From an uncultured Halieaceae bacterium (GTDB lineage Bacteria > Pseudomonadota > Gammaproteobacteria > Pseudomonadales > Halieaceae): DNA of 48,114 bases. A program made the position numbers and the translations under genes. The stretch is from assembly GCA_913031575.1 (NCBI GenBank), contig CAJWEV010000012.1, positions 1 through 48,114 on the forward strand. Direction: 5' to 3'. Under the pieces are notes generated by a model. It was not told where the DNA came from and did no database searches. It saw only the letters and a program-made list of their open reading frames with translations. Shown one piece after another: positions 10,761-27,153 of the stretch; position 1 is the stretch's first letter; every line of letters begins with the position of its first letter.

Positions 10761-12341
10761 CTACCAAAACGCGGAATAGATCAGAGCCAAGATAAGCCCC
10801 ACAGCGATAGCAGCGACGTTAAAGCCCTGCGTCGTGGCAAACTCAATATCGCTGAGCAATACAGGCTGTCCCGCCTCGGGATTTCGCGTTAGCTTAGCAA
10901 CCAGAAGACCCAAAACAATGTTGGCGAGAAAAACGAGCCATATACGCAATACGAAGGGCATATCCGGCATCATCACCTTTAGCGCAAGACTCGCGATCAC
11001 CGAACCAATCAAAACAGCATAGGCGCTGACCTCATTGGCTCGCTGGTAGAAGAAGCCCAATAGAAAGATCGTCACCACACCCGGGGCAATAAAGCCCGTG
11101 TATTCCTGAATGGTTTGGAATGCGCTCTCCATGCCACCCAAAAACGGCCTAGCAAGCACAAGGGCGATCAACATGGCGGCGAATGCAACTACCCGTCCAA
11201 CCATCACGTAATGCGACTCATCATCTTCTCTACCCGCGTATTGACGGTAGATATCCATGGTAAAGATGGTGGCAATAGAGTTCATCATTGATGCTAGCGA
11301 GGACACAATCGCCGCTATCAAAGCCGCAAAGACAAGACCCCGCAAGCCGGATGGCGCCAGTTTCATTAGCTCACCGTAGGTACGATCTGATTTGTCATTT
11401 AAAACTTCTGCCGCCAGTGCGCCATCTTGTGCAAGCACAAGGGCCGCAATACCTGGTAAAACAACAATGACGGGGATCAACAATTTCAGAAACGCAGCAA
11501 ATGCCAAGCCCTTTTGTGCCTCGGCAAGGCTTTCCGCGCCCAGAGCGCGCTGAATGATGTACTGATTAAAGCCCCAGTAGGAGAAATGCAGCACCCAAAG
11601 ACCGCCCAAAAGCGTCCAAATACCCGGAAGATCGCCGTAGTTAGAGTGCGATTCATCAAGAATCATTATGAAGTGGCCCGGGACCTCTTTGCCGAGCCGA
11701 GCCAATCCTGACAGTGCCCCCTGGCCGGCCCCGACAGCATCCAGTGCAAGCCAAGTGATGGCAAAACCACCCAAGATGAGAATTACAACCTGAATAATGT
11801 CGGTTAAAGCAACGGCCTTTAGACCCCCGTAAACCGAATACAGCACTGCGAAAGCAGCAAGCCCAATCATGGCTGACATCACGCTAATGCCTGTCAAGCT
11901 CTCAATTGCGAGACCACCCAACCACAGTACTGCCGTCAGGTTGACCGCGGTGTAGAGCACGATCCAATAAAAAGACATCAAGGACTTGACCCCCGTGCCA
12001 TATCGGGTCTGCAGGAACTGCGGCATGGTGTAGATTTCGCGCTTTAAAAATATGGGCAAAAAGTACTTGGCAACAACCAGCAACACGATCGCCGCCTGCC
12101 ATTCATAGGCGGCGATAGCCAACCCGACCACATAGCCTTGACCCGACTGCCCGATAACCTGCTCTGCCGAGATATTGGCTGCTATCAACGAGGCACCGAT
12201 TGCCCACCACGGCAATGTTCTCCCTGCGAGAAAGTAGTCTTCAGTGGTTTTAGTGTGACCCAAATCACGAGATACCCACTGTGCCAAACCAAACAACCCT
12301 GCGGCGTACAGCACCACAATCATCACATCAACGGTCGTCAT
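10761..12341 (-). CDS. Sodium:solute symporter (SSS/SGLT family), probably for glucose or a related sugar
   Basis: Inner-membrane Na+-coupled symporter of 526 residues with about 13-14 hydrophobic segments. The N-terminus has EDYFLAGRTLPWWAIGASLIAANISAEQ, the SSS signature around TM1-TM2, and QSGQGYVVGLAIAAYEWQAA. Later segments such as GLRGLVFAALIAAIVSSLASMMNS and QEYTGFIAPGVVTIFLLGFF resemble vSGLT-type sugar transporters. It lies 30 bp behind the GH3 gene on the same strand, so import of the glucose that GH3 releases is the natural reading. The start is supported by AGGGAG six bases before the ATG. Confidence 0.9.
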   Translation of the reverse strand: MTTVDVMIVVLYAAGLFGLAQWVSRDLGHTKTTEDYFLAGRTLPWWAIGASLIAANISAEQVIGQSGQGYVVGLAIAAYEWQAAIVLLVVAKYFLPIFLKREIYTMPQFLQTRYGTGVKSLMSFYWIVLYTAVNLTAVLWLGGLAIESLTGISVMSAMIGLAAFAVLYSVYGGLKAVALTDIIQVVILILGGFAITWLALDAVGAGQGALSGLARLGKEVPGHFIMILDESHSNYGDLPGIWTLLGGLWVLHFSYWGFNQYIIQRALGAESLAEAQKGLAFAAFLKLLIPVIVVLPGIAALVLAQDGALAAEVLNDKSDRTYGELMKLAPSGLRGLVFAALIAAIVSSLASMMNSIATIFTMDIYRQYAGREDDESHYVMVGRVVAFAAMLIALVLARPFLGGMESAFQTIQEYTGFIAPGVVTIFLLGFFYQRANEVSAYAVLIGSVIASLALKVMMPDMPFVLRIWLVFLANIVLGLLVAKLTRNPEAGQPVLLSDIEFATTQGFNVAAIAVGLILALIYSAFW

Positions 12342-12371
12342 ATCGATCTCCCTGCAATTGTTCCGCTTCTG

Positions 12372-14873
12372 TCAATTCAACAACGCTGTGTCGTTGACTA
12401 GGTCTGCACACGATACGATCGAGTTAATCGCCGGCGTGGTGGTAAGTTTGATTTCCGAGATATCAAGGCTCATATCACCCTCGGTTGCGAGTACAAATGC
12501 TGTATTCACTCGAGCGAGTTGCAAACCCCCGTTGGCAAAACAGGCCGTCGGTACCGACTTCTGGGTCCACTCGCCCGTAGGGGCATTGAGCAACACCTTG
12601 GTGAATCGGACCGATCCAGAGCACGGGTATTTACAGTCCATTCGCAAATTCACTGGGGCTGTTGGCTTTTTCAACAATCTGAAATCGAGAACGAGTGCAC
12701 CGCCGGCCTCATCCAAGTCAGTGAGATCTGTCGGGTATTCAGACTGCATGTAGACAACTGATAGCCTTTTATCAGCATCAGCAGCGCCCGTAAAAGTCAC
12801 GCGTCGTGCATCCTCCTGAACCACCCGGTCGATGGCCTGAACGACAACACTTCCGGTCGATGATTGTGCCTCACTACCCGTGATTTCTACCGCCCAGTCG
12901 CTGGGATCACCAGCGAAGAGCTGCCAGTTTCCTCTCGGGCCACCCTTGAAAACCTCTTGGTCCAGGCTGTTATCTGCACCAATTAACTCTTCGGATAACT
13001 CCGACCAGGCCAACTCCTCTGCCACCGATAACCCATAACCGATCGGGAAAATAAATTCGTCAACAGGTAAATCGCGATCGAGCGCGTTCACGTCAACTGC
13101 AGGCCAGGGCATAGGCAGTTTGCCCACGAAATCAAACTGTAGGTTGTCCTGGGCGTCAGCAAGTAAGACATCGGCAACACCTTGCCCCTCGCTACCCGGC
13201 AGCCACGACACTACAAAGGCATCGCTGTCATTCAGGATGTCATTGACCCACATTGGACGTCCCGTCAAGAATACCGCCACAACAGGAATACCGCGTGCCT
13301 TTAGCGACTTTATTAAAGCTCGCTCACCTCTTTGGTCGGACCAAGCAAGCGAATAAATGTCTCCCTGCATTTCTGCGTAAGGAGACTCGCCAAAAACGAT
13401 GATAGCAATATCAGCGTCCGCTTCCGTGTCTGACGTCACCGATCCACCAGCAGCTTGGATCTGCGCAGTCAGTCCGGCTGCAATCGAAGTGCCGCCAGGA
13501 AAATCTTGATTGGTATTACCCGTTCCCTGCCAACTCACAGTCCAGCCACCACTCTGCTGCCCAATATCGTCGGCACCTGGACCGGCAATGATGAACTTCC
13601 CAGCGGGCGATGCTGGAAGAACGCCACCTTGATTTTTCAGCAACACCTGCGACTTTCTCACGGCTTCCCGAGCGATGGCACGATGATCCGCGTGGCCGAT
13701 TTGATCAGAGAAGTCCTCTGCGAATTCGGAGGGGCGTCCACGGTTGAATAGCCCAGCCCGCATTTTCATGACCAAAACGTGTCCAACCGCTTCGTTTAGT
13801 CGCGCGATAGAAATTTCTCCGGTCGAGACTTGATCGAGCATGTTGTAGTACAGGGACTTCCAGCTTCCTGGCGCCATCACCATATCGACACCGGCATTGA
13901 TCGCCTGAGCACAGTTATCGTTTGTGCAGCCAAGTACCTCACCAACACCATTCCAGTCACTGACGACCATGCCCTCAAAACCCATGTCGCCTCTTAGAAG
14001 ATCAGTCAAAATAGCCTTACTGCCGTGAATTTTCTCACCGTACCAGCTATTAAATGACGACATCACGCTCATCACGTCTTTGTCGATAGCTTCTGCGTAA
14101 CCCTGTCCATGAATAGCGACCAATTCCTTAAGCGGTATGCTGATATCGCCACGGTCATCACCACGCAACGTACCGCCGTCCCCAATAAAGTGCTTAGCCG
14201 TTGAGGCAACGCCCTCATCTTGCATCGCCTCAACGATAGGCGCTACGAAAGTAGCGGCAATATCTGGGTCGGAGCTGAAGGATTCATAGGTACGCCCCCA
14301 CCGCGCATCTTTTGCAACAGCAACGGTCGGAGCAAAGATCCAATCGATTCCAGTTGCCTTAACTTCCCTAGCGGTCGCACCGATGATCCTAGCCACCAGC
14401 TCTGGATCACGCGTCGCCCCCAGACCAATATTGTGCGGGAATAACGTCGCACCCATAACGTTATTGTGCCCGTGTACCGCATCAGTTCCCCAGATGATCG
14501 GTATGCCTGCGCTACCTGCAGAGGCGTCAATCGAGGCATTGTAATAGGTGTCGGCCAGATCAACCCAATCTTGAGGGGTGGCGTACTTGTCCCCTCCGGG
14601 AAAGCCTCCACCACCGTTCAGCACACTCCCTAGCCCATATTTTTTTACATCATCTGCCGTGAGGCCACGAATCTCACCTTGAATCATCTGCGCGACTTTC
14701 TGCTCGACCGACAGCTGCTCAATAATAGCTGCCGCGCAGGTAGCCATCGATTCCCGATCTGAAGCCACCGGTGCGCAGCTCAGGTCGATGTCATCATCGC
14801 CCCCCGGACCTTGGCACCCAGACGTGACCACAGTCGATAACAGTAGGCCCAACAATTTGTAGCGTGATCGCAC
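12372..14873 (-). CDS. Glycoside hydrolase family 3 exo-beta-glucosidase lipoprotein (ExoP-like)
   Basis: Protein of 833 residues that releases glucose from beta-glucans or oligosaccharides. A lipoprotein signal ends with lipobox TSGC (C20), and Gln at +2 suggests the outer membrane. The N-terminal TIM barrel (about 50-380) carries GTDAVHGHNN, the substrate-binding AKHFIGDGGT and the nucleophile D306 in VVSDWNG. A second alpha/beta domain follows (about 400-630, with VLLKNQGGVLPA), then a C-terminal jelly-roll resembling the ExoP C-terminal domain (about 650-815). The GTG start has GGAG nine bases upstream. Family members prefer beta-1,3/1,4-glucans or laminari-oligosaccharides. The gene is divergent from the TonB receptor. 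Confidence 0.93.
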   Translation of the reverse strand: MRSRYKLLGLLLSTVVTSGCQGPGGDDDIDLSCAPVASDRESMATCAAAIIEQLSVEQKVAQMIQGEIRGLTADDVKKYGLGSVLNGGGGFPGGDKYATPQDWVDLADTYYNASIDASAGSAGIPIIWGTDAVHGHNNVMGATLFPHNIGLGATRDPELVARIIGATAREVKATGIDWIFAPTVAVAKDARWGRTYESFSSDPDIAATFVAPIVEAMQDEGVASTAKHFIGDGGTLRGDDRGDISIPLKELVAIHGQGYAEAIDKDVMSVMSSFNSWYGEKIHGSKAILTDLLRGDMGFEGMVVSDWNGVGEVLGCTNDNCAQAINAGVDMVMAPGSWKSLYYNMLDQVSTGEISIARLNEAVGHVLVMKMRAGLFNRGRPSEFAEDFSDQIGHADHRAIAREAVRKSQVLLKNQGGVLPASPAGKFIIAGPGADDIGQQSGGWTVSWQGTGNTNQDFPGGTSIAAGLTAQIQAAGGSVTSDTEADADIAIIVFGESPYAEMQGDIYSLAWSDQRGERALIKSLKARGIPVVAVFLTGRPMWVNDILNDSDAFVVSWLPGSEGQGVADVLLADAQDNLQFDFVGKLPMPWPAVDVNALDRDLPVDEFIFPIGYGLSVAEELAWSELSEELIGADNSLDQEVFKGGPRGNWQLFAGDPSDWAVEITGSEAQSSTGSVVVQAIDRVVQEDARRVTFTGAADADKRLSVVYMQSEYPTDLTDLDEAGGALVLDFRLLKKPTAPVNLRMDCKYPCSGSVRFTKVLLNAPTGEWTQKSVPTACFANGGLQLARVNTAFVLATEGDMSLDISEIKLTTTPAINSIVSCADLVNDTALLN

Positions 14874-14895
14874 GTGACTTCTCCAGCCGTCTATT

Positions 14896-14927
14896 CTTAC
14901 GTTCTTCTTCTCTTGCGTTCTTCTTCA
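14896..14927 (-). repeat. Tandem 2 x 16-bp repeat in the GH3 5' leader
   Basis: CTTACGTTCTTCTTCT is followed directly by CTTGCGTTCTTCTTCA, with 14 of 16 positions identical. On the transcribed strand it is a purine-rich GAAGAAGAACG tract about 25-55 nt before the GTG start. It could be an operator, a translational enhancer-like element or replication slippage. Confidence 0.55.
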
Positions 14928-15327
14928 TTTAGTCTCTGATATCTGACAGCGTTAATCGATCTATCGCGCAAAAAATCACAGAGACGCACCCCGGGATTGC
15001 CAGAAAGCCCATGCGCCCTCGGGATAATTCAATCGAGTCAGTAAAATACTGCTTTGACCACCCCGCATGCACGACGTTTGCGACGGTAGGGTCGCCAGAA
15101 GGGGTCAAATGGATAACGCATCGGATAGCACTTGCCCCTGTTTTATGGCCCCTAAAATTTCAACTGTTTACGCGTAACGGAGCCGGTGTTGTGCCCCAAT
15201 ATTGCATACGGTGCAGGAGCTTCCCATTTACCGCACCGATATCCCGACTTGTCTCATGCCACCTGTCCTACCGCTAGCGCTCATGGGATGTTAGCGTCTG
15301 AAAAATATTTCTAACCAATAACTAGTC

Positions 15328-15342: not shown

Positions 15343-18294
15343 ATGGATCGTCACTTGTTTGCTAAGAAACGCGTATCGCTCGCGGTGTCAGTTGCGCTGG
15401 GCGCGGTTGCTGCTGCACCAGTCGCCGCGCAGCAAAGCGAAAACGCTAATGATCAGGTAATGGAAGAAGTCGTAGTCACAGGCATCCGGTCAAGCCTAAA
15501 GCGCGCGATGGACACCAAGCGAGACGCAACAGGTGTTGTGGATGCGATCACCGCCGAGGATATTGGTGACTTCCCCGATACGAACCTCGCAGAAGCACTG
15601 CAACGGATTACCGGTGTTGCTATCGATCGTGACCGCGGTGAAGGCGCTCGCGTAACCGTTCGTGGATTCGGGGCTGACTTTAACCTTGTAACGCTGAATG
15701 GCCGTCAGATGCCAACGCACAGTGGTTTCGGTCGTTCCTTCGATTTCGGTGATATCGCCTCAGAGAGCGTATCGGGCGTTGAAGTATACAAGACCGCTCA
15801 GGCAAGCATTCCGACGGGCGGTATTGGTGCCACCATTAACGTCCTGACCGCAAAGCCTCTCGACAACCCTGGGCTGCGCACATCAATTAGCGCCAAAGGT
15901 GTTAAAGATCAGAGCTCCTTCACGGGCGACGAGTGGACACCTGAAGTTGCATTCCTGGTTTCGCAGACGTTCATGGATGACACCGTTGGTATTTCGGTCA
16001 CCGGCAGCTTCCAAGAGCGTCAGTCAGGTCAGGCATCCGCGTCTAACGGTAACTGGCTGGAGCGTGATGGCATTGGCATCCCAGACAATGGACAGCAAAT
16101 CAATGGACCCTCAGAGGGCGATATTGTTGGCCTCCCCCAGCAGCAAACCTACTCGCTTGACGAGTGGGATCGTGAGCGAACAAACGCTCAGGTTACCTTG
16201 CAGTGGAGTCCTATTGAGACGCTGACAGCAACTCTCGACTACACCTATGCTGAGCTCGATCTGCGTCATACTGGAAACAGCATGTCGGTCTGGTTCAGCC
16301 CAACAGGTCAGTCAGGCAACTGGATAAATGAAGATGGTGTTATAAGCCCTTTGGTTTACACAGAGACGAATAACCAACCCGACTTTTCAATGGGTGCCTT
16401 TGTTGATGCATCGATCAATGAGCGAAAATCTACAGGCTTTAATCTTAAGTGGGATCCGACAGATCGATTAAGTCTCGAGCTTGATTACCACGATTCTGAA
16501 GCGACTCGAACACCCAACAGCCCGTTCGGTAGTTCAGGTCAGATCTCCATGTCTATTTTTGGGCGTGAACTGACTTCGGTTGATTACCGCAACGAATTAC
16601 CCATTCTGACGCTGGGTATGGCCGAGCCGATTTCACCGGACGATCTGCAAATCTCTGGCTCAGTCTTTGGTAATAGTTGGGCTGATATGGGTATCGAGCA
16701 GGTACAGTTCGATGGCAGCTTCCAGCTGACAGACACCCTGACGATCGACTTTGGCGCTGCTCAAACAGAAGTCGACAACTACACCGCAGGATCAAATGTT
16801 CAGCGAAACACCTGGGGCCAAAACCAGACGTCGGCATTTGGTAGCGTTGCGGACCTTGTTATTCCGGCCTCGCTGGCGGGTGTCTACAGTGAATTGGCTG
16901 GCGGTAATCAGGTAAACAACAACTTCTTCATGGCGAATATGGAAGATCTCGCGCGTCGTGCGGAGTTCCTCCAGAATCTGCCCGAAAGCGATCCCATGCA
17001 TCTTGCGCAAGCGAGTGACGGTGGTGACTGTGGGACTGGATTCTGCGCTAGTTCAACACCAGACAGCGAAGATTTCTTCGAAGAAGATAGTGTGGCCGCC
17101 TACTTGCAGCTCAACTTCACAGGGGAAATTCTCAATCGCCCCTTCAATGTTCGCGCAGGCGTTCGTCACGAGGAGACCGAAGTGGTTTCTAGTACCGCAG
17201 CGCAGGCGTATGACCGCGTTGAGTGGCGCTCAACCAACGAATTCGAAATCATTCGTGCCGAAGGAAGCGTACCTTCCGCCCTGGCAGGTGAATACGACTT
17301 CACTCTACCCTCGATAGACTTCGATATGGAGTTAACGGATGACCTCGTGCTACGCGCGTCTGCGAGCCAAACGATTGCACGCGCGGGTTATGGGTCGCTG
17401 GTTGGCACATTGAATCTGCCCACCATTACTCGTGTCGACCAGGGCATTCCCGGCGAGGCGATTGCATCTGTGGGTAACCCAGGTCTACTTCCTTACGAAT
17501 CTGACAACTTCGATCTCTCACTTGAGTACTACTACGGCGATGCAAGCTACATTTCTGCCGGCTACTTTGATAAGGAAGTCCGCAACTGGATCGCAGGTGG
17601 TGTTTTAGAAGATGTCATCCTGAATGACCAGCTAGCGAGTCCAGGTCTCGGTCCATTGTATCAGGAAGCGGCTGCGGCACTTCAGGCACAAAACGGCGAG
17701 TACCCTGGCAATGCTGAGATCCGCGAGTACATCTTCGCAAACTTCGCGGATCAGCCAGGTGTTGATGCGGCAAACCAGGTTATTACTGGTGTGGTTGGCC
17801 GAGATGATCCTGTCCCCTTCAACGTCAACACGCTCACTAACAGTGACCGTGATGAAAGTATCGACGGATGGGAGCTGGCTTGGCAGCACAATTTCTGGGA
17901 TACCGGTGTTGGCTTTATCGCTAATATGACTATCGCTGACGGCTCTGCGACTTACGTCAACGAGCAAACCGGTAGCCAGTTTGCACTTTCAGGCCTATCT
18001 GATACGCGAAACTTCGTACTCTTCTATGATAAATACGGAATCCAAGCCCGTGTGGCGTACAACTGGCGTGATGGCTACTACACTGGGGGCGATATAAAGC
18101 CTGGCTACCAGACAGAATACGAGCAGTGGGACGGTAATATTACCTACGAGGTCTCTGATGGTCTGGTGGTTTTTGTGGAAGGTATCAACATCACAAACGA
18201 AACGTTCCGTTCACACGGTCGTAGCGTCTATCAGACGTATGGCGTCGGACAGATTGGTGCACGCTATAATGTCGGCTTCCGTTACAACCTCTAA
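15343..18294 (+). CDS. TonB-dependent receptor, probable glycan oligosaccharide transporter
   Basis: Outer-membrane transporter of 983 residues powered by TonB/ExbBD. A cleavable signal peptide ends near A29 (VAA|QQ). The TonB box lies at 41-47 (EEVVVTG), followed by the plug domain with GIRSSLKRAMDTKRDA, DFPDTNLAEALQRITGV and VTVRGFGADFNLVTLNGRQ, then a long 22-strand-type barrel that ends in the terminal aromatic motif (YNVGFRYNL). This is the Caulobacter/Xanthomonas-type TonB receptor class linked to carbohydrate uptake. It is divergent from GH3 and followed by a terminator and the halogenase operon. The substrate is inferred to be beta-1,3-glucan oligomers from the GH16 and GH3 neighbours. 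Confidence 0.94.
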   Translation: MDRHLFAKKRVSLAVSVALGAVAAAPVAAQQSENANDQVMEEVVVTGIRSSLKRAMDTKRDATGVVDAITAEDIGDFPDTNLAEALQRITGVAIDRDRGEGARVTVRGFGADFNLVTLNGRQMPTHSGFGRSFDFGDIASESVSGVEVYKTAQASIPTGGIGATINVLTAKPLDNPGLRTSISAKGVKDQSSFTGDEWTPEVAFLVSQTFMDDTVGISVTGSFQERQSGQASASNGNWLERDGIGIPDNGQQINGPSEGDIVGLPQQQTYSLDEWDRERTNAQVTLQWSPIETLTATLDYTYAELDLRHTGNSMSVWFSPTGQSGNWINEDGVISPLVYTETNNQPDFSMGAFVDASINERKSTGFNLKWDPTDRLSLELDYHDSEATRTPNSPFGSSGQISMSIFGRELTSVDYRNELPILTLGMAEPISPDDLQISGSVFGNSWADMGIEQVQFDGSFQLTDTLTIDFGAAQTEVDNYTAGSNVQRNTWGQNQTSAFGSVADLVIPASLAGVYSELAGGNQVNNNFFMANMEDLARRAEFLQNLPESDPMHLAQASDGGDCGTGFCASSTPDSEDFFEEDSVAAYLQLNFTGEILNRPFNVRAGVRHEETEVVSSTAAQAYDRVEWRSTNEFEIIRAEGSVPSALAGEYDFTLPSIDFDMELTDDLVLRASASQTIARAGYGSLVGTLNLPTITRVDQGIPGEAIASVGNPGLLPYESDNFDLSLEYYYGDASYISAGYFDKEVRNWIAGGVLEDVILNDQLASPGLGPLYQEAAAALQAQNGEYPGNAEIREYIFANFADQPGVDAANQVITGVVGRDDPVPFNVNTLTNSDRDESIDGWELAWQHNFWDTGVGFIANMTIADGSATYVNEQTGSQFALSGLSDTRNFVLFYDKYGIQARVAYNWRDGYYTGGDIKPGYQTEYEQWDGNITYEVSDGLVVFVEGINITNETFRSHGRSVYQTYGVGQIGARYNVGFRYNL

Positions 18295-18319
18295 CATCGA
18301 GCGAATGTTGCTCTTAGAA

Positions 18320-18349
18320 AGCCGCCCTCGGGGCGGTTTTTTGTTTTTG
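18320..18349 (+). terminator. Intrinsic terminator after the TonB receptor
   Basis: CCGCCC and GGGCGG pair around a TCG loop, followed by TTTTTTGTTTTT. It separates the receptor from the halogenase operon, whose transcription then needs read-through or its own promoter in the 52 bp that follow. Confidence 0.9.
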
Positions 18350-18401
18350 TAGAAACAACAAAGTCTTACACTCGATATCGAAACCAAAGCAGCCATTTCA
18401 T

Positions 18402-19964
18402 ATGAGCGAGCGAATGCAAAAAGTTATTATTGTGGGGGGCGGGTCGGCCGGTTGGCTAGCAGCCAACATCCTTGCTGCGCGTTTTCAGGCAGGCGGCAGT
18501 GGCATCGCCATCACCTTGGTCGAATCACCCAACGTACCAACAGTGGGTGTGGGTGAAGGCACATGGCCTTCAATGAGAACAACGCTTAAGAATATCGGTA
18601 TCGACGAAGCAGACTTCATCAGGCAATGCGACGCCTCAATGAAGCAGGGTACGTGGTTCAAGGACTGGATCAACCAAGACGACCAGCCCTATTACCACCC
18701 CTTCTCGCTGCCCGAGGGCTTTGACACGGTAAACCTCGCTGAACATTGGCTGAACGGTGAAGCCGGAAATATATCGTTCGCAGAAGCGGTAACGCCGCAA
18801 CATGCGGTCTGCGAGCTGGGACGTGCACCCAAACAAATTGGCGTTCCGGGCTATGCATATACCGTCAATTATGGATATCACCTCGATGCGGGAAAGTTCG
18901 CTGCCCTACTAACTGAGAACGCCGTGTCGAAGCTTGGTGTTACTCACATCGAAGCCGATGTAATTGGAGTACTCTGCGATGCTGATGGGTATATCAGTGC
19001 GATAAAAACTGAGCAAGCCGGCCACATCACGGGCGATCTTTTCATCGACTGCACCGGCTTCAAAAGCATGCTGCTAGGCGAACACTATGGTGTTTCGTTG
19101 AAGTCCCAGCGCCAATACCTCTTCAATAACGCCGCCTTAGCCTTGCAAGTACCCTACGAAGATGACGACGCTCCAATCGCTGCAACAACGCACTCCACAG
19201 CGCAGCGGAATGGGTGGGTTTGGGATATTGGACTCCAGCATCGCCGAGGTGTGGGTCATGTGTTTTCAAGCGACTATCAGTCAGTCGGCGAAACCGAAGA
19301 AGTTCTTGATCAGTACCTAAAGTCTACCGGGCGAGCAACGGGACTAGATGGATTAGCTCCCCGGCTACTCAACTTTGAACCAGGCTATCGCGAACGTTTT
19401 TGGGTCAAGAATTGTGTGGGCGTCGGCTTATCAGCAGGCTTTATTGAGCCGCTAGAAGCCTCAGCGCTGGTACTGATCGAACTCAGCGCATCGGCGATAG
19501 CAGAGCAGTTACCTCATGATAGAGCAACAATGGCGGTCGTGGCTAAGCGCTTTAATCGTGAGTTTTCCAGTCGCTGGGAGCAAATTATTGACTTCCTAAA
19601 GCTTCACTATGCGCTGTCTCAACGAACCGACTCACAGTATTGGCGAGATAACCGGGACGCTGAATCTATGCCGGAGACATTGGCGGAGAATCTTCTTCTG
19701 TGGCGATCACGGGCGCCTTGGTATTATGACGACAGACGAAATGATGAAATGTTCCCGTCTGCAAGTTACCAATACGTGCTTTACGGTATGGGCTTTGAAT
19801 CAGCGGTAAATGCCTCGCAGCTAAGGAATAACCAACACCAGAGCGAAACGGCGCTACGGTTCTTTGCCGAGGTAAAGAAGAAAGCACAGCGATATGGCCA
19901 GCACCTTCCTCCTAATCGATTTCTAATGCATCAAGTGCAAGAAAAGAACTTCGCGGCGATTTAA
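18402..19964 (+). CDS. Flavin-dependent tryptophan-halogenase family protein, divergent form
   Basis: Member (520 residues) of the flavin-dependent halogenase family (PF04820), which uses FADH2, O2 and halide to halogenate electron-rich aromatics. Visible are the FAD loop GGGSAGWLA (12-20), GVGEGTWPSM (49-58), the lysine that carries the active halogen species (K81 in ASMKQGTWF) and the glutamate E352 in FIEPLEAS. The family motif WxWxIP is present only as W272-V-W274-D-I-G277, with Gly replacing Pro. Natural substrate unknown; it may be a peptide, protein or small molecule rather than free tryptophan. It is the first gene of the four-gene operon with SapC, cupin and a second halogenase. Confidence 0.9.
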   Translation: MSERMQKVIIVGGGSAGWLAANILAARFQAGGSGIAITLVESPNVPTVGVGEGTWPSMRTTLKNIGIDEADFIRQCDASMKQGTWFKDWINQDDQPYYHPFSLPEGFDTVNLAEHWLNGEAGNISFAEAVTPQHAVCELGRAPKQIGVPGYAYTVNYGYHLDAGKFAALLTENAVSKLGVTHIEADVIGVLCDADGYISAIKTEQAGHITGDLFIDCTGFKSMLLGEHYGVSLKSQRQYLFNNAALALQVPYEDDDAPIAATTHSTAQRNGWVWDIGLQHRRGVGHVFSSDYQSVGETEEVLDQYLKSTGRATGLDGLAPRLLNFEPGYRERFWVKNCVGVGLSAGFIEPLEASALVLIELSASAIAEQLPHDRATMAVVAKRFNREFSSRWEQIIDFLKLHYALSQRTDSQYWRDNRDAESMPETLAENLLLWRSRAPWYYDDRRNDEMFPSASYQYVLYGMGFESAVNASQLRNNQHQSETALRFFAEVKKKAQRYGQHLPPNRFLMHQVQEKNFAAI

Positions 19965-19974
19965 GGGACAGACA

Positions 19975-20691
19975 TTGAGTAATATTCAAAAGTTAAACAA
20001 TGTGCAGCACGCGCAGGTACGCATAAAACAATCCCCCTGCGTCTCCGATGAAATCATGTTCTCGCCTGTTTACACCAGCGAAATGCGCGCGTTGCAAAGT
20101 AACTTCCCGCTCATGTTTTACAAAAATCCGCAGGAGAACACGTTTCAGCCCATTGCCCTATTCGGGTTCGAGCAGGGAGAGAATCTCTTTATTGACGATG
20201 AGCAGTGGCACTGCCAGTACATCCCCATGCTGGTTCAGCGGGGCCCCCTCATGATAGCCGTTGATGGTCAGACCGACACGGGAGAGCCCGCCCGAGTGGT
20301 GGCCATTGACATGGACCACCCCAACATTAGTGAAACTGAGGGAGAGCCACTTTTCCTCGAGTTTGGTGGAAACACGGAATATCTTGATCGCTTGGCGACG
20401 ATGCTCGAAGGGATTCACTTAGGGCATACGACGACGCCCCAGTTCGCTGAGGCTTTGGCGCAGCACGGTCTAATCACATCAATTACGCTAAAGATCACTC
20501 TACGCAACGGACAGGATCATGCCCTAGAGGGATTTTATGCAGTGGATGATGAAAAACTACAGGTACTCAACGATGAAGCCACTACAGACTTACATCGCCG
20601 TGGCCATTTGCTACCCGCGTATATGATGATTGCCTCTCAATCGCAGCTCAAGCGCCTGATCGACCTCAAAAATCAAAAGGTTATGGGTTAA
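19975..20691 (+). CDS. SapC family protein
   Basis: Protein of 238 residues that I recognise as a SapC-like family member (PF07277), named after a Campylobacter surface-array-linked gene. Family traits include the basic start with HAQVRIKQSP, SPVYTSEMRALQSNFPLMFYKNP (near 35-55), a central GFEQGENLFIDD and the C-terminal LLPAYMMIASQSQLKRLIDLKNQ. No catalytic motif, signal peptide or membrane helix is evident. No biochemical function is established to my knowledge; genes of this family are often found with TonB receptors and halogenase homologues. The TTG start has AAGGGA six bases upstream and lies ten bases behind halogenase 1. Confidence 0.85.
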   Translation: MSNIQKLNNVQHAQVRIKQSPCVSDEIMFSPVYTSEMRALQSNFPLMFYKNPQENTFQPIALFGFEQGENLFIDDEQWHCQYIPMLVQRGPLMIAVDGQTDTGEPARVVAIDMDHPNISETEGEPLFLEFGGNTEYLDRLATMLEGIHLGHTTTPQFAEALAQHGLITSITLKITLRNGQDHALEGFYAVDDEKLQVLNDEATTDLHRRGHLLPAYMMIASQSQLKRLIDLKNQKVMG

Positions 20692-20697
20692 CGCCTC

Positions 20698-21717
20698 ATG
20701 CCCGCCTGTAACGAAGCGACACTGATTACCGAAGTAGACCTGCCAGCCGGATCGCCGCCCCCAGATGTCTTACTAACTTCCGATACGCCCTGGGTTGCGC
20801 GAGGCTATCTGAATGAATGGCCCATTGTTCAACACGCTGCAGACAGCACTGAAAAAGCACTCGACTATCTAGCTAGTTTCTATCAGGGCAGGCCCATCAA
20901 TGCCTTTCTTGCAGATCCGGAGTCCAAGGGACGCTTTTTTTATAACGAAGATGTCACCGGTTTTAATTTCGTACAGGTGAATACCCGACTAGATCAGGTC
21001 TTTAGCAAGCTCCTATCACTTAAGGACGAATCAAACCCACCATCACTTTATGTTGGGTCAACACAGACCAATGTCTGGCTACCTGGCTTCAACGAAGCAC
21101 ATGCACTGCCGATGGCCCTTCCAGGCGTCATGATCAGTCTGTGGATTGGTAATCAATCTAAAGTTGCCGCGCATTTTGACTTCCCGCGCAATATTGCAGG
21201 CTGTGTCATCGGGCAGCGCAGATTCACCCTATTTCCACCTGATCAGGTGGCCAACTTGTACGTCGGTCCATGGGATCTTACCCCCGCAGGCCAACCCATC
21301 AGCATGGTGGACTTTGACAACCCGGATTACGAGCGATTCCCGCGATTTGCAGAGGCTGAGCGTAACGCTCTTGTTACCACGCTAGATCCAGGTGATGCCA
21401 TCTACATTCCCAACATGTGGTGGCATCAGGTCGAATCTTTGTCAGCCATTAATGGACTGGTGAATTTCTGGTGGCAGGAAACGCCCGGAGTTTACGGCTC
21501 ACCGACCGAGGCCCTGAAGCATGCTTTTCTAAGCATCCGCTCTCTGCCACTTCATCAGCGCAACGCGCTAAAATCATTGTTTGATCACTATGTATTTGCC
21601 GAGGACACTCAACACCTCGAACATCTGCCAGAGGCGAGCTGGGGTCGGCTAAATACGGTCTCAGATTCACTAGCCCGTCAATTGCGGGCGGAACTGACAA
21701 ATTCATTGAAACGGTAA
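20698..21717 (+). CDS. Cupin-like (JmjC-type) 2-oxoglutarate/Fe(II) oxygenase family protein
   Basis: Protein of 339 residues with the cupin-8/JmjC fold. The iron-binding facial triad is readable: H159 and D161 in AAHFDFPRN, and H243 in PNMWWHQVES. LYVGSTQ near 118 and CVIGQRRFTLFPPDQ near 169 match the family layout of factor-inhibiting-HIF-like hydroxylases, many of which hydroxylate protein or peptide side chains. The substrate is unknown. It sits six bases after SapC and seven before halogenase 2, so all four are probably co-translated as one pathway. A non-catalytic role is unlikely because the triad is intact. Confidence 0.88.
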   Translation: MPACNEATLITEVDLPAGSPPPDVLLTSDTPWVARGYLNEWPIVQHAADSTEKALDYLASFYQGRPINAFLADPESKGRFFYNEDVTGFNFVQVNTRLDQVFSKLLSLKDESNPPSLYVGSTQTNVWLPGFNEAHALPMALPGVMISLWIGNQSKVAAHFDFPRNIAGCVIGQRRFTLFPPDQVANLYVGPWDLTPAGQPISMVDFDNPDYERFPRFAEAERNALVTTLDPGDAIYIPNMWWHQVESLSAINGLVNFWWQETPGVYGSPTEALKHAFLSIRSLPLHQRNALKSLFDHYVFAEDTQHLEHLPEASWGRLNTVSDSLARQLRAELTNSLKR

Positions 21718-21724
21718 GAGTGGA

Positions 21725-23215
21725 ATGTCTGAACGGAAAGTGGAACGCGTAGTCATTGCCGGTGGTGGGACGGCTGGCTGGATGGCAGCCGCTGCCCTAT
21801 CGCGTCTCGTTGGTCGAGAGCTCTCCGTTACCCTGGTGGAGTCTGAAGAGATTGGCACTGTCGGGGTTGGTGAGGCGACCATTCCCAGCATACTGACGAT
21901 CAATCGATTGCTTCAAATACCCGAACCCGATTTCATCAAGCTGACCAGCGGCACCTTCAAGTTGGGTATTCGCTTTGAGAACTGGCGAACAGAGGGCGAA
22001 GACTACTTCCATTCATTTGGTGATACCGGGAAAGGTTCATGGGCGGCAGGGTTTCATCACTTCTGGCTTCGCGCACAAGAACTGGGGCTTGCCGAGCAGT
22101 ACGGCGAATACTGTCCCGAGCTGAAAGCTGCCGAGGCGGAGCGCTTTGCTATCACCAGTGAAAACAGGCTCAACTACGCCTATCACCTCGATGCGTCAAA
22201 ATATGGCATGTACCTGCGCAAAATGGCGGAGACCTCTGGCGTTACTCGCGTTGAGGGAAAGATCAACCAAGTCGACACCTGCCCCCACGATGGTTTTATC
22301 GAGGCACTGGTGCTCGACAATGGTCATCGCATTGAGGGCGATCTCTTTATCGACTGTACGGGATTCAGAGCGTTGCTGTCCGAGGGTACATTGAGAACGG
22401 GCTTCGATGATTGGAGCCACTGGTTACCTGCGAATCGCGCATGGGCAGTCCAAAGTGAACTGTCAGAGCACCCCAAGCCTTACACCAGAGCAATTGCCCA
22501 TAAAGTGGGCTGGCAGTGGCGGATACCGTTGCAGCACCGTGCCGGTAATGGTCTGGTCTACTGTAACGACTTCATGGATGAAGAGACGGCCCGGGAGCTA
22601 CTGCTCGAGAACGTGCCGGAGAAAACTCTCGTTGAGCCACGTCCGATACGCTTTATAACGGGCCAAAGAAAGCAGTATTGGAATAAAAACTGCATCGCCA
22701 TTGGCTTGTCGAGTGGCTTCATCGAACCTTTGGAGTCGACCAGCATCCATTTTATTCAGAACGGCATTATGTGGCTGTTGCTCATGTTTCCCGATCTTTT
22801 TATCGAAGAGAGTACGGTGCGCGAGTACAACACGAAAATGCGATCTGAAGCCGAGCACATTAGAGATTTTATTGTTCTGCATTATGCGCTCAATGAACGA
22901 CAAGGTGATCCCTTCTGGGATCACTGTCGAAACATGGAGTTGCCGGACTCGCTTAAACACCGGATGAAGCTGTTTGAGCGTTCAGCCCGTGTCTTCAAGC
23001 CGCAAGACGACGTCTTTGCAGAGAACTCCTGGGTGCAGGTCATGATGGGCCAAGGGCTCACACCGCAGGGATACCACAACATTGCACAAGCGATGTCCGC
23101 CGAGCAAATGACTGCATTCTTGAAAGGCATTCAACACGAAGTCGCTCAAACCGTTGCGAAACTGCCGCAGCATGGGGCGTTTGTAAATACGTTGATACAG
23201 CACGCGAAAGTCTGA
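21725..23215 (+). CDS. Flavin-dependent tryptophan-halogenase family protein, canonical motifs
   Basis: Second halogenase of the operon, 496 residues. Motifs are complete: FAD loop GGGTAGWMAA (13-22), GVGEATIPSI (47-56), catalytic K79 in SGTFKLGIRFENW (the same residue number as in PrnA), W263-x-W265-R-I-P268 and E337 in FIEPLESTS. It is thus more conventional than halogenase 1, whose motif ends in IG. The paralogues share the start MSER and overall plan but differ in the central region. It is probably a non-tryptophan-specific (BrvH-like, TonB-receptor-associated) member. It needs a flavin reductase partner; none lies in this operon, though two flavin reductase-like genes lie at 1.4-2.5 kb. 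Confidence 0.92.
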   Translation: MSERKVERVVIAGGGTAGWMAAAALSRLVGRELSVTLVESEEIGTVGVGEATIPSILTINRLLQIPEPDFIKLTSGTFKLGIRFENWRTEGEDYFHSFGDTGKGSWAAGFHHFWLRAQELGLAEQYGEYCPELKAAEAERFAITSENRLNYAYHLDASKYGMYLRKMAETSGVTRVEGKINQVDTCPHDGFIEALVLDNGHRIEGDLFIDCTGFRALLSEGTLRTGFDDWSHWLPANRAWAVQSELSEHPKPYTRAIAHKVGWQWRIPLQHRAGNGLVYCNDFMDEETARELLLENVPEKTLVEPRPIRFITGQRKQYWNKNCIAIGLSSGFIEPLESTSIHFIQNGIMWLLLMFPDLFIEESTVREYNTKMRSEAEHIRDFIVLHYALNERQGDPFWDHCRNMELPDSLKHRMKLFERSARVFKPQDDVFAENSWVQVMMGQGLTPQGYHNIAQAMSAEQMTAFLKGIQHEVAQTVAKLPQHGAFVNTLIQHAKV

Positions 23216-23358: not shown

Positions 23359-23387
23359 CAAAAAAAAGCCGAGCAATTGCCCGGCTT
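23359..23387 (-). terminator. Intrinsic terminator of the GH16 gene
   Basis: On the minus strand AGCCGGGC and GCTCGGCT pair around AATT and are followed by eight Ts. It lies 18 bases after the GH16 stop. No T-run exists in the plus direction. Confidence 0.88.
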
Positions 23388-23404
23388 CTCAGTCAGTCTG
23401 CGGT

Positions 23405-24877
23405 TTAGCGTGTCAGTAGGTAGTTCCACCAAACGCCGTCACCTGCTTCAACAGTTACCGACATTGTGCCGTCTTCGTTGAGGTAGGCGTTGTAGGTGAT
23501 GCTAGCTGGCACATCCGCTGCAGATCCGATCTCAGCACCGTTAATCGCCTTTGGAAGGCCGATGTACGCACCAGCACCATTGAGCGTCAGAGTTTTTGCA
23601 TCGCCATCATAGACGAAGGTCGCGTCAGCAGAACCATCGTGCGGTGCCGCTGGAGCGCCACAGCCTTCGGTCTCTACACCCTGCCACGGCTCAAGCCATG
23701 TCTCATCGCCTTGCACGTTTTCGAATGAGCCGCTGTCACCAAACACGTAAGCGTCATCGAAGTAACAGGCACGCAGCGTTGTTACCCCTGCATCGTTACT
23801 CCACCATGAGACATCAAACTCAGCAGGACCTACACCTAAGGACCCGTCAGAATCCGCCATGTACCAAGTACCAGCAATCGGTGACGGACCTGCAGGTTCC
23901 GCGATCTTGATGATCTTGTAGTTCCACCACACGCCAGCACCTGCTTCGACGGTGACGTACATAGAACCGTCTTCCTGTGGGTGCGCGTTGTAGGTAATGC
24001 TCGCTGGCACATCGGCAATGGAGCTGATTTCTGCACCATTAATCGCCTTAGGCAGCCCTACAAATGAACCCTCGCCAGAAATCTTCAGCGTACCCGCGTC
24101 TTGATCATGGGTCCACGAACCAGGCACGGAGCTGTCATGCGGTGCTACTGGCGCGCCACACTCCTCACCGCCGCCCGACTGCCAAGGCTCGAGCCAAGTC
24201 TCACCTTGGTACTCGATACGGAAGCTGCCATCTGGGTTGAAGATGTACTCGTCATCGTAGTAGCAATCTCGCAGTGCAATCACACCGTCATCACCGCTCC
24301 ACCAGGAGACATCGAACTCAGCAGGACCGACACCCAAGGAACCTGCTTCGGGGGCAATCACCCAGGTACCCTGGAATGGCGATGGGGGTGGTGGCTCAGC
24401 CGTCTTGATGAACTTGTAGTTCCACCAAACGCCCGCACCTGCTTCAACAGTTACCAGCAGGGAACCATCTTCTTGCTCGTAAGCATTGTAGACAATGCTG
24501 CCAGGGGCATCACCCAGTGAGGATATTTCAGCACCGTTGATAGCCTTTGGTAAGCCCATGTAAGACCCTTGACCATTGATGGTCAGCGTTTGAGCGGCTT
24601 CATCGTATTCAAACGTCGCAGGGATAGAAGCATCGTAGGGTGCGACAGGCGCGCCGCATTCTTCACCACCGCCCGACTGCCAGGGCTCCAACCAGGTTTC
24701 GTCACCCAAGACATTGCGGAAAGATCCATCACGGCCGAAGACGTACTCGTCGTCGTAGTAACACGCACGCAACGCGATTACTCCGTCGTCACCGCTCCAC
24801 CATGAAACATCAAATTCCGCAGGGCCTACGCCAAGTGAACCAGCCTCGGGTGCCAGCATCCAGGTCCCTAGGATGCC
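23405..24877 (-). repeat. Three tandem ~500-bp coding repeats in the GH16 gene
   Basis: Repeat units run 24877-24380, 24379-23882 and 23881-23405. Each encodes the invariant strings SLGVGPAEFDVSWWS, ETWLEPWQ, GLPKAINGAEI and VEAG-GVWWNY. Each also has two conserved Cys (CYYDD/CYFDD and CGAP). The linkers between repeats are Pro-rich (EPPPPS, EPAGPS). Twenty-two tryptophans fall in 490 residues. I do not recognise a named domain; glycan binding is a guess. Confidence 0.9.
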
Positions 24878-27037
24878 AGTATCTTCAACTTCCTCACCAG
24901 CCAGCCGCTCTAGTCGGATATTTGCCACTTTCAGCGACTTACCGCCCTGTTCACCGTTTGGTGACAGTACTAGGAACGCTTTGACAGCACCCAAGTTCAA
25001 ACGTCCACCTGGAGGGTTGTTCTGTTCTGCATTAGTGGAAAGCAGGAGATCCGAAATCGGGATCTCGAAGCTCTTCCAAGTACCAGCAGCGTAGCCACTC
25101 AGGTCAAGCTCTATCGGGCCAGTACCCTGCGGATAATCATTCTCTACCTTGTAGATAATGCCATCGGCGACCGTCTCTGCAGATAAATTAATGTCGAACT
25201 TCAATTTACCGCCAGCAGAATCACTCAGATCAAGACCTTGGTCGTCCTTGATAAACCATGCGCCACCAACACCGTCACCGAAGTTCACTTGCACCGCGTT
25301 AGGACCGATGGCGTCATCACCTGTTGGAACAACTGACCAAGTCACTTGGTTTGATGTGTTGCCGTCACAGTAGTCTGAAGCAAATGCGTTCTCGGCCGAT
25401 ACCGCACAGATACCGGGCGACCACGCAGAGCCCGCCTCACCATTTTCATCTAGTACCGTGATCACAAGATCATCAGTTGCGCGTGCTGGAGCAGAAATGC
25501 CGCAATCGCCGTCTGGCGTACCACACACTAACCGGATATTGTCCAACTGCAGGTGGGCAGCAGCACTCGGCTCGATGACCACAAGATTCTGAACAGCACC
25601 CAAAGCAAGCGTTCGCTCACCACGGTTAGCAAGGATCTGATTGATCGATGCACTGTACGAGAACCACTCGTTCTTAGGCATGGCCGAGACATCAAGTGTC
25701 ACACTGCCAAGCGCAGGATACCCACTATCCATTTTGATCGAGATTGTGCTGTTGGGTGCAGTCATTGAGCTGTCGATGTACATATCAAACTTCAGCTCGC
25801 CGCCACCACGGTGACCGTATACGTCAATGATTTTGCCATCGGCCGCGTTGATCACGACGTTACCGCCGCCATCACTCATAACATCGAGCACGTTACCTCG
25901 GCCTTCAACAGCCACTTCCGAAACACTGATATCAATTGCGCCTTCGTTGTTCCAGCCAACAGCCGCCTGTAAGTCGCGTGTCACGTCGCCTGTGAGGAAG
26001 GTCCACGCCAGAGGACCAACAGAATCAGTGTAGATGTCTGTCGTAACGACCTCAGGGCTCTGTGCATTGGGAGACTCGACCGAGCGGTCAGCAAGGCTGT
26101 TACAGCCGACGCCGTTCGATGTCGCGTAGGAGCACTCATAGACACGGATGTAGTCGACAACCATTTCGCCGGGAACAGCTGTTGGGTCGAGTTCAACGCC
26201 TGGACCAATACCACCCACTGCAAGGTTCACTATGAGGTGAAATTCTCGATCGAAGGGTGCAGAGGGGTCACTCGCCAACTGATAACCGTTCGTAGCGTCC
26301 TTGAAGTAATAGCTGTAGTAAACGTCTTTGTTTACGGTTCTGAGGTGCTCGCCGTCAACGAACCAACGCAGATAATCACCTGACCATTCAAGCGAGTAAG
26401 TATGCCAGTCGCTACCATCGTCGACATCGGCGCCTTCACTCGTAATTTGGTTGAGAGGCCACTCGAAACCGTAGTGAGCAGCCATGAATACGCCCTGATT
26501 ATCAGTGCCCGCATTCACCACTTCCATAATATCGATCTCACCACCGGCAGCCCATGTGCCATAAGTCGTGTCCGTCGGCATCATCCACACAGCTGACCAC
26601 ATACCATCACCCGGGGCAGCTTTGGCACGAATGTCGACACGGCCGTATTTGAAATCAAACTTACTAAGCGAACGCATGCGCGCTGAGGTGTACGCACTGT
26701 TACCCGCATCTTCCTGACGAGCCTCAATCACAAGCGCAGTTGTATCGTCGACTTCCTGGATAGATGCATTTTCAGCTTGGTAATACTGCAGTTCATAGTT
26801 ACCCCAACCTGGCAGCCCATTATCGCTACCGTCTCCCAGTTGGAACGTCCAGTTACCAGAATCCACCGCGCTGCCGTCGAATTCATCAGACCAAACCAGC
26901 CTCCACTCTTCTTCTTCCTCAAGGTAAAACGGCTCGACGTCAGGAGCAGTTGCACTACCCCCGCCACAGGCGTTTAGGAGAGCTGCCGCAAGGCCGATGC
27001 CAACGAGACGGCCATGACGATACAAGCGATCAAACAT
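23405..27037 (-). CDS. GH16 endo-beta-1,3-glucanase (laminarinase) lipoprotein with two CBM-like domains and three C-terminal repeats
   Basis: Surface lipoprotein of 1210 residues. ATG 27037 is preferred over TTG 27049 because GGGG lies just upstream of it. The signal has lipobox LNAC (C24). The GH16 catalytic domain spans about 45-304, with catalytic residues E167, D169 and E172 in GGEIDIMEVV and laminarinase-type KFDFKYGRVDIRAKA and WPAxxWM-like GMWSAVWMMP. Two beta-sandwich modules resembling the ExoP C-terminal/CBM type follow (about 330-515 and 525-715), then three repeats of about 160 residues (721-886, 887-1052, 1053-1210). It cleaves laminarin or related beta-glucan at the cell surface. 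The LytS/LytTR pair lies upstream, the halogenase operon converges on it. Confidence 0.93.
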   Translation of the reverse strand: MFDRLYRHGRLVGIGLAAALLNACGGGSATAPDVEPFYLEEEEEWRLVWSDEFDGSAVDSGNWTFQLGDGSDNGLPGWGNYELQYYQAENASIQEVDDTTALVIEARQEDAGNSAYTSARMRSLSKFDFKYGRVDIRAKAAPGDGMWSAVWMMPTDTTYGTWAAGGEIDIMEVVNAGTDNQGVFMAAHYGFEWPLNQITSEGADVDDGSDWHTYSLEWSGDYLRWFVDGEHLRTVNKDVYYSYYFKDATNGYQLASDPSAPFDREFHLIVNLAVGGIGPGVELDPTAVPGEMVVDYIRVYECSYATSNGVGCNSLADRSVESPNAQSPEVVTTDIYTDSVGPLAWTFLTGDVTRDLQAAVGWNNEGAIDISVSEVAVEGRGNVLDVMSDGGGNVVINAADGKIIDVYGHRGGGELKFDMYIDSSMTAPNSTISIKMDSGYPALGSVTLDVSAMPKNEWFSYSASINQILANRGERTLALGAVQNLVVIEPSAAAHLQLDNIRLVCGTPDGDCGISAPARATDDLVITVLDENGEAGSAWSPGICAVSAENAFASDYCDGNTSNQVTWSVVPTGDDAIGPNAVQVNFGDGVGGAWFIKDDQGLDLSDSAGGKLKFDINLSAETVADGIIYKVENDYPQGTGPIELDLSGYAAGTWKSFEIPISDLLLSTNAEQNNPPGGRLNLGAVKAFLVLSPNGEQGGKSLKVANIRLERLAGEEVEDTGILGTWMLAPEAGSLGVGPAEFDVSWWSGDDGVIALRACYYDDEYVFGRDGSFRNVLGDETWLEPWQSGGGEECGAPVAPYDASIPATFEYDEAAQTLTINGQGSYMGLPKAINGAEISSLGDAPGSIVYNAYEQEDGSLLVTVEAGAGVWWNYKFIKTAEPPPPSPFQGTWVIAPEAGSLGVGPAEFDVSWWSGDDGVIALRDCYYDDEYIFNPDGSFRIEYQGETWLEPWQSGGGEECGAPVAPHDSSVPGSWTHDQDAGTLKISGEGSFVGLPKAINGAEISSIADVPASITYNAHPQEDGSMYVTVEAGAGVWWNYKIIKIAEPAGPSPIAGTWYMADSDGSLGVGPAEFDVSWWSNDAGVTTLRACYFDDAYVFGDSGSFENVQGDETWLEPWQGVETEGCGAPAAPHDGSADATFVYDGDAKTLTLNGAGAYIGLPKAINGAEIGSAADVPASITYNAYLNEDGTMSVTVEAGDGVWWNYLLTR

Positions 27038-27047
27038 GAGTAACCCC
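27038..27047 (-). promoter_or_regulatory. Leader motif GGGGTTACTC before the GH16 start
   Basis: Identical to the ten bases before the TonB receptor start at 15328-15337. Here it abuts the ATG, giving a GGGG Shine-Dalgarno site six bases from the start codon. Confidence 0.45.
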
Positions 27048-27153
27048 AATTAATTGAATATTTATTTAGATTTAGCAGAGTGCTTTATCCCACATCAAAG
27101 AACAGCACTTAATACAAACACGACGATAGGGACTTACAGCAAGACAAGTGGGA

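Follow-up and report, generated by a model that had tools for sequence, protein, structure and literature searches.

Flavin-dependent halogenases (FDHs) of the BrvH type and those of Xanthomonas have been described by their structures and in-vitro activity; according to parts of the two reports they accept indole derivatives, not free tryptophan, and their natural substrates are unknown (PMC5945002, PMC7336383). Which substrate such enzymes may meet in the cell is the question raised by a locus in the window analysed here, a contig of 48,114 nucleotides (CAJWEV010000012.1; C12 of the assembly) from the genome of an uncultured Halieaceae bacterium (2.14 Mb in 88 contigs, 79% complete). The locus encodes two FDH-like proteins, a SapC protein and a JmjC-type cupin oxygenase in the order FDH1-SapC-cupin-FDH2 behind a TonB-dependent receptor (TBDR). 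This order is inherited as a block. Our tentative reading is that its products act in the cytoplasm as an oxidative tailoring module, that their substrate is a surface protein, perhaps the receptor encoded next to them, and that SapC serves as the carrier.

A conserved gene block behind a TonB-dependent receptor

The four genes of the quartet are separated by gaps of 10, 6 and 7 bp (Table 1). An earlier reading of this DNA from its sequence only had described four tightly spaced plus-strand genes beside a TBDR and between glycoside hydrolase genes of the families GH3 and GH16, and coordinates, families and gaps agree with that description. The receptor reached 596.5 bits with TIGR01782 (curated cut-off 310), FDH1 and FDH2 403.3 and 614.6 bits with PF04820 (cut-off 21), SapC 216.4 bits with PF07277 (gathering cut-off 28.9) and the cupin 220.6 bits with PF13621 (cut-off 27.4). 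FDH1 and FDH2 are the only full-length FDH genes of the genome, a weak third PF04820 match (36.6 bits) being located on contig C69.

For the comparison with other bacteria, species genomes were scanned with 19 aligned cupins and the best 80 of at least 583 confirmed relatives were kept, a choice by which the resulting cupin-anchored loci lean towards close kin. Exactly the order FDH1-SapC-cupin-FDH2 was present in 64 of the 80 named loci. The array follows the receptor without interruption in 54 of them; among the ten others, two (L149, L176) have a called open reading frame (ORF) between receptor and FDH1, and some are truncated at a contig end. The partial arrays comprised TBDR-SapC-cupin-FDH2 (4 loci), TBDR-SapC-cupin (5), receptor-cupin (1), arrays without FDH2 (2) or without SapC (2) and two others. 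A TBDR match was found in 70 of the 80 loci. The nearest named relative, a Halieaceae metagenome-assembled genome (L101), shares the gene order and has a cupin that is 90% identical. The full quartet occurs in Gammaproteobacteria, among them Shewanella and Gilvimarinus, and in Burkholderiales (Duganella, Massilia, Rubrivivax and others), while the alphaproteobacterial plasmids among the annotated plasmid loci (six picked, from 20 listed of 42 records) carry the shorter array TBDR-SapC-cupin-FDH, the parts of which are labelled by PGAP by family only.

Two further draws of genomes were searched for the single families. In the class draw (143 genomes, E 0.001) SapC was detected in 21 genomes, Cupin_8 in 11 and PF04820 in 51 (37 above the cut-off), the PF04820 matches being mostly weak and to other flavoproteins; one further genome of this draw (G012) contains two TBDR-SapC-cupin-FDH2 arrays. 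The order draw (95 genomes) revealed SapC in 30 genomes, Cupin_8 in 27 and a strong FDH match in 14. All 18 high-scoring cupins of the order draw lay within 3 kb of SapC or an FDH (15 near SapC, 15 near an FDH), compared with none of the 11 lower-scoring Cupin_8 matches, a count which omits 13 still weaker Cupin_8 rows. Seven additional loci with the exact quartet were found, every one of them near GH16 or GH3. Near neither partner were 22 of 40 SapC genes and 28 of 55 FDHs; the parts of the quartet thus also live apart. Five tandem Cupin_8 matches in one genome of the order draw (G176:C1:4546059-4550638) are distant from any SapC or FDH.

Co-occurrence of the four families near TonB receptors, which the sequence-only reading had named as a check of its proposal, is far above chance according to both the 64 of 80 loci and the 18 of 18 cupins. 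It is hardly credible that chance neighbours or hitch-hiking genes without a joint function are involved: the full quartet is missing from 16 of the 80 loci, but its order is fixed in distant genera with median gaps of 29 bp (FDH1-SapC), 6 bp (SapC-cupin) and 20 bp (cupin-FDH2), next to 121 bp between receptor and FDH1, and at genome level the cupin of the order draw was accompanied by SapC in 11 of 11 and by an FDH in 11 of 11 cases, so that this explanation is mostly refuted already. The recurrence of this gene set with unchanged order in other bacteria gives it the appearance of a genuine conserved machine.

A phage origin was also considered. Relatives of FDH2 were found in 78 phage records, mostly of cyanophages; for SapC and cupin a single record, faecal and unannotated, gave matches. 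In this record (MT835646.1, “Bacteriophage sp.”) SapC, cupin and FDH matches are neighbours at positions 12021-15203, and the record is probably a contig of bacterial origin deposited as phage.

Table 1. Features of the locus in the window.
Feature	Position	Strand	Remark
Sodium/solute symporter, possible inner-membrane partner	10761..12341	-	homologues in 6/80 related loci
GH3 glycoside hydrolase with Exop_C domain, divergent from receptor	12372..14873	-	
TBDR, TIGR01782 type, 983 aa, signal-like N-terminus by eye	15343..18294	+	family score
Terminator-like hairpin, 13 pairs, then T-run; separates receptor from quartet	18315..18343	+	hairpin scan
FDH1, flavin-dependent halogenase-like, 520 aa, K81 kept, WxWxIP replaced by WVWDIG	18402..19964	+	
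SapC (PF07277), 238 aa, TTG start, without signal-like N-terminus by eye	19975..20691	+	
Cupin_8 / FIH-like (JmjC-type) oxygenase, 339 aa, triad H159-D161-H243, R174	20698..21717	+	
FDH2, flavin-dependent halogenase, 496 aa, K79 and WQWRIP intact	21725..23215	+	
Terminator-like hairpin between FDH2 and GH16	23363..23390	-	read from minus strand
GH16 glycoside hydrolase, 1214 aa, convergent with FDH2	23405..27049	-	
LytTR response regulator and histidine kinase, possible regulators	27171..29107	-	homologues in 7/80 and 6/80 related loci

The enzymes of the quartet and SapC

An alignment of 168 FDHs (68 FDH1, 73 FDH2 and 27 others) was used to compare the two paralogues. The catalytic Lys is kept in all 141 FDHs of the module loci (68/68 FDH1, 73/73 FDH2) and in 25 of the 27 others. 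The FAD motif reads GGGTAGW in all 73 FDH2 and GGGxAGW in 67 of the 68 FDH1, one sequence being gapped there. A FIEPLE-like stretch, compared as a stretch and not residue by residue with E346 of PrnA, is kept in both sets. All 73 FDH2 and 24 of the 27 other FDHs have the proline of the WxWxIP motif, whereas the position is occupied by Gly (64), Ala (3) or Ser (1), and never by Pro, in the 68 FDH1, which form one clade (one change on the tree). The earlier notion of two equivalent halogenases therefore receives no support, since the absence of the proline from FDH1 and the whole motif in FDH2 indicate that FDH1 is not an ordinary halogenase. Based on these motifs FDH2 looks like a true halogenase, while for FDH1 either a monooxygenase or an altered halogenase is conceivable.

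The solved relatives differ between the two proteins. The structures closest to FDH2 are 6y1w, 9luq and 6frl. The first, Xcc4156 of Xanthomonas campestris (E 3.7e-182), has been characterised by structure and indole-type substrates, its genomic context not being found in the main text as searched (PMC7336383). BrvH (6frl) aligns with FDH2 over its length (E 4.7e-126) and shares the Lys and WxWxIP; a second halogenase gene, 42.7% identical, is located upstream of the BrvH gene (Neubauer et al. 2018, PMC5945002, in part), similar to the FDH pair described here. The closest solved relatives of FDH1 are the “tryptophan halogenase” structures 2pyx, 9ltb and 9lu2, of which 2pyx (WDIGL) and 9ltb (WDIAL) have WDI without the proline, like FDH1.

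The properties of FDH1 also bear on a different explanation, in which the quartet enzymes would control the receptor locus as oxygen- or flavin-dependent sensors, or in which neither FDH would halogenate, both being plain monooxygenases. FDH1 lacks the proline of a motif which, in the part of the BrvH report concerned, was suggested to prevent monooxygenase activity (PMC5945002), and a degenerate, Lys-less paralogue is present in two solitary FDH loci. However, both FDHs retain the Lys and the FIEPLE stretch, every FDH2 of the alignment has the whole motif, and we regard this explanation as improbable. The two degenerate paralogues (ORF starts L180:10386 and L190:8762) have Ser and Gly, respectively, for the catalytic Lys, lack WxWxIP and adjoin an intact FDH like pseudo-enzyme partners.

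The intact Fe(II) triad of the cupin noted from the sequence alone was corroborated by conservation, H159, D161 and H243 being invariant in 19 aligned cupins and at least 95% conserved in 89. Among solved structures the cupin is closest to human FIH (E 2e-22) and JMJD5; the match spans only about 115 residues and comprises the HxD..H region, FPPDQ and the VDFDNPDYERFP stretch, which are common to the cupin and both proteins. FIH and JMJD5 modify proteins, FIH acting on ankyrin proteins. The cupin does not possess the Lys by which FIH binds 2-oxoglutarate; the corresponding Arg174 is invariant in the 19 cupins and may take part in cosubstrate binding. In six loci (L106, L117, L119, L128, L129, L164) a second, converging cupin gene directly follows FDH2.

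A putative further oxygenase, DUF6445 (PF20043), is encoded in 18 of the 80 loci, in 16 of them directly behind FDH2 on the same strand; it is absent from the quartet of the window, where GH16 follows FDH2 on the opposite strand. Its HxD..H..R motif (H119, D121, H211, R229) is invariant in 17 aligned copies, and its predicted fold (pLDDT 94.1) was matched by Foldseek to OGFOD1, PHD2 and other 2-oxoglutarate oxygenases with TM values of up to 0.50 (best match OGFOD1, E 3.9e-4, probability 1.00, TM 0.47). Both the motif and the modelled double-stranded beta-helix suggest that DUF6445 is a 2-oxoglutarate Fe(II) oxygenase-like protein.

SapC was modelled with confidence (pLDDT 95.7, pTM 0.89). Foldseek, the only structural comparison used, found no match at E 0.001 or below among 350,542 PDB chains (best 0.21), and among PDB sequences the only match was at chance level. 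SapC is thus a well-bounded structural unknown and merits structural work for its own sake. The SapC proteins of the module form a branch of their own, separated by one change on a tree with 78 copies from the module and 40 stand-alone ones; H12, E36, N70, W78, P84, P91, F92, G123, G131 and S221 are at least 90% conserved in both groups.

Of 20 stand-alone SapC genes in the first draw, 14 had an ORF of at least 1200 aa within their 20-kb locus, compared with 5 of 75 module or FDH-only loci (p 1.5e-8). According to a composition check 13 of these 14 loci have a giant that is rich in Gly, Asn, Thr and Asp and poor in Cys; the 1249-aa ORF of L033 differs. Genes of the secretion type were also detected in these loci: five have TpsB-type ShlB/POTRA genes, one has OEP and HlyD, and L033 encodes a SecA-like protein. 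This protein (L033:6870-8852), close to the SapC gene, has 661 aa with SecA DEAD, preprotein cross-linking and P-loop domains. Among the annotated plasmids, SapC follows at short distance giant autotransporter-repeat genes of about 20 kb in Methylobacterium (L309), with one small gene in between, and about 16 kb in Agrobacterium (L310); in Rhodospirillum it is found beside ABC transporter genes. An invariable association of SapC with giant proteins was ruled out by a second draw, in which only 6 of 20 loci had a giant neighbour, some of these again of the kind seen in the first draw, and in which RF3, EF-Tu, type VI, sigma factor, sulfotransferase and methyltransferase genes were other neighbours. 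Since a large exported protein, either the receptor or a giant, is present in both settings of SapC, we infer that SapC is a partner of exported proteins.

Receptor and glycan context

The linkage of FDHs to TIGR01782 receptors is general and extends beyond the module. In 13 genomes a same-strand receptor of this type was found no more than 1.5 kb away from 26 of 54 FDHs, where random placement would predict 1.2, and 45 of the 54 had a receptor within 6 kb. A link between BrvH-type halogenases and TonB receptors had been cited as known in the sequence-only reading; the link itself is confirmed here, although the main text of the BrvH report, as far as it was covered, contains no mention of TonB, SapC, cupin or operon (PMC5945002).

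The receptors of the module loci are nearly one clade, requiring three changes on a tree of 126 receptors compared with at least 35 in 100 shuffles (the alignment comprised 71 module-locus receptors, 15 FDH-linked ones and 40 of the 47 without FDH). In 42 of 67 equivalent gaps between receptor and quartet a hairpin of -9 kcal/mol or better followed by four T was detected, compared with 10-21 of 67 in 20 shuffles permuting base runs; the same scan identified hairpins in 0 of 67, 2 of 77 and 0 of 74 of the inner junctions. This suggests that receptor and quartet form separate transcripts or are unevenly transcribed, the hairpin scan being a simple one and no proof of termination.

Of the 55 cupin-anchored loci with a length of 19 kb or more, 41 contained homologues of GH16, GH3, GH17 or GH1, but only 3 of 20 quartet-less FDH loci did (Fisher p 7e-6), a control which is imperfect because the sets originate from different genomes and a receptor match exists in only 14 of the 20 control loci; for GH16 alone the numbers were 22 of 55 and 0 of 20. 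The remaining 14 long loci lack all four families. A Pfam scan of 85 longer neighbours in 18 of the 20 quartet-less loci revealed alpha-amylase (11), major facilitator superfamily (MFS) transporters (5) and CBM48 (3) as well as GH10 and GH95 in two each. On a Pseudoalteromonas plasmid receptor, FDH and SapC are located amid galactosidase genes, and on a Sphingomonas plasmid receptor-FDH and SapC-cupin are found amid xylan genes. One Sphingomonas copy of the module adjoins type VI secretion genes, and in another locus (L172:11577-13931) an MFS_2 sugar transporter is fused to a GH17-like domain, its cluster occurring in 17 of 81 loci and a match to the GH17 part in four.

A role of the FDH-receptor pair restricted to laminarin is ruled out by the pairs in alpha-glucan (alpha-amylase), xylan and galactoside loci, and its distribution across many glycans argues against a glycan-specific substrate. 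The full module shows a strong preference for beta-glucan loci, with exceptions. Of the “laminarin locus” proposed earlier the beta-glucan part is retained, in accordance with 41 of 55 relatives, while the laminarin specificity of the FDH-receptor link is not. GH3 and GH16 of the window exceed the Pfam cut-offs and reach no NCBIfam equivalog naming a substrate, and their families point to a beta-glucan, laminarin being a further step drawn from their combination. The locus has receptor, GH3, GH16, symporter and regulator in common with TIGR01782 carbohydrate-utilisation loci. The oxygenase quartet is an addition to the usual parts of TonB-receptor carbohydrate-utilisation loci.

The gene neighbourhood also bears on the main rival of the preferred reading, a small aromatic which enters via the receptor, with or without a glycan, and would be halogenated and hydroxylated by the quartet in the cytoplasm in order to be detoxified, degraded or reused. 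The closest solved relatives of FDH2 belong to the BrvH/Xanthomonas group, whose members act on indole derivatives rather than free tryptophan in the parts of the reports cited (PMC5945002, PMC7336383), and among the partners only the receptor is retained in almost every locus (70/80). However, the neighbours are carbohydrate genes, no aromatic-catabolic family recurs among them except homologues of RPE65, AMP-binding proteins and nitronate monooxygenase (six loci each), the FDH-receptor pairing extends across unrelated glycans, and giant proteins are the other context of SapC. Import of a small aromatic thus appears possible but doubtful.

Alternatively, the module might convert a cell metabolite into a small diffusible product, a signal or scavenging ligand, which is re-imported by the receptor. 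Enzymes of the type that tailor small aromatics are present beside a receptor, and two-component or LacI regulators occur near some loci. Nevertheless, no non-ribosomal peptide synthetase, polyketide synthase, ligase or exporter recurred among the classified neighbour clusters (18 occurring in at least four loci, 17 of them Pfam-scanned), and the clade of quartet receptors is linked to glucan loci, which makes this scenario rather unlikely.

Possible substrate of the module

Building on the established gene order, catalytic-residue motifs and folds, the preferred reading of a tailoring module adds a location, a substrate, a halogenation and a complex. The four proteins would act in the cytoplasm on one substrate belonging to the receptor locus, which SapC would bind in an unfolded or extended form and present to the enzymes. 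FDH2 would halogenate an aromatic ring or oxidise it through hypohalous acid (HOX), FDH1, lacking the motif proline, would perform a related flavin oxidation that may be a hydroxylation, and the FIH-like cupin, in some loci together with DUF6445, would hydroxylate side chains. The substrate class would most likely be a surface protein before export, the adjacent receptor being the first candidate since it is the only non-enzyme partner travelling with the module. Transcription past the terminator would yield few enzyme copies per receptor.

A biosynthetic core gene or a conserved small precursor ORF accompanying the module was not found among the classified neighbours and the compared small ORFs. 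A precursor similar to those of ribosomally synthesised and post-translationally modified peptides (20-110 aa, outside called genes) was rejected after a comparison of 769 small intergenic ORFs, the 15 largest groups of which comprised two loci each, mostly of near-identical relatives.

Several observations weigh against the tailoring of a surface protein. Giant neighbours of stand-alone SapC, present in 19 of 40 loci over both draws, dropped to 6 of 20 in the second. The FDHs near neither SapC nor cupin (28 of 55 in the order draw) imply that FDHs can work without those partners, and of the 78 TIGR01782 receptors in the 13 genomes 47 lack an FDH within 6 kb, which implies that the receptors do not require one. 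BrvH is active on free indole according to a part of its report (PMC5945002). The cytoplasmic location was judged by eye only, and the receptor is a candidate target. In the receptor alignment FDH-linked and FDH-less receptors were separated by Y149 and D381 only. Many residues, among them W317, H383 and W628, are restricted to the module receptors; this is expected of a single clade anyway and lends no specific support to the receptor as target, which is thus not supported by a sequence signature. The sequence-only reading had proposed one shared target, perhaps a surface protein; this gains from the giants and secretion genes near SapC outside the module and loses by the receptor residues.

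In its most specific form, in which SapC carries the nascent receptor or a partner surface protein and, before export, FDH2 brominates its aromatics, FDH1 oxidises them and the FIH-like oxygenase hydroxylates other residues, the reading would amount to dedicated protein halogenation and hydroxylation, which we consider distinctly doubtful. If it were true, the surface of the receptor would be chemically changed, which may affect, for example, its grip on the glycan or the escape from phages or from antibodies of rivals that use the receptor, and the BrvH-type halogenases would gain their missing natural substrate.

A description of the quartet was not found in the open literature searched, preprints and most subscription journals being outside that scope. 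Every component belongs to a known family, while the module and its function appear to be undescribed. The question of the halogenase substrate is narrowed to one operon, amenable to deletion in cultured strains, by a strictly ordered module that combines a receptor with an FIH-like oxygenase, a protein whose fold is unmatched and, in some loci, a prolyl-hydroxylase-like enzyme. If proteins are the target, the module would represent a dedicated bacterial route of protein halogenation; if a small molecule is the target, it would represent an unrecognised chemistry added to glycan loci.

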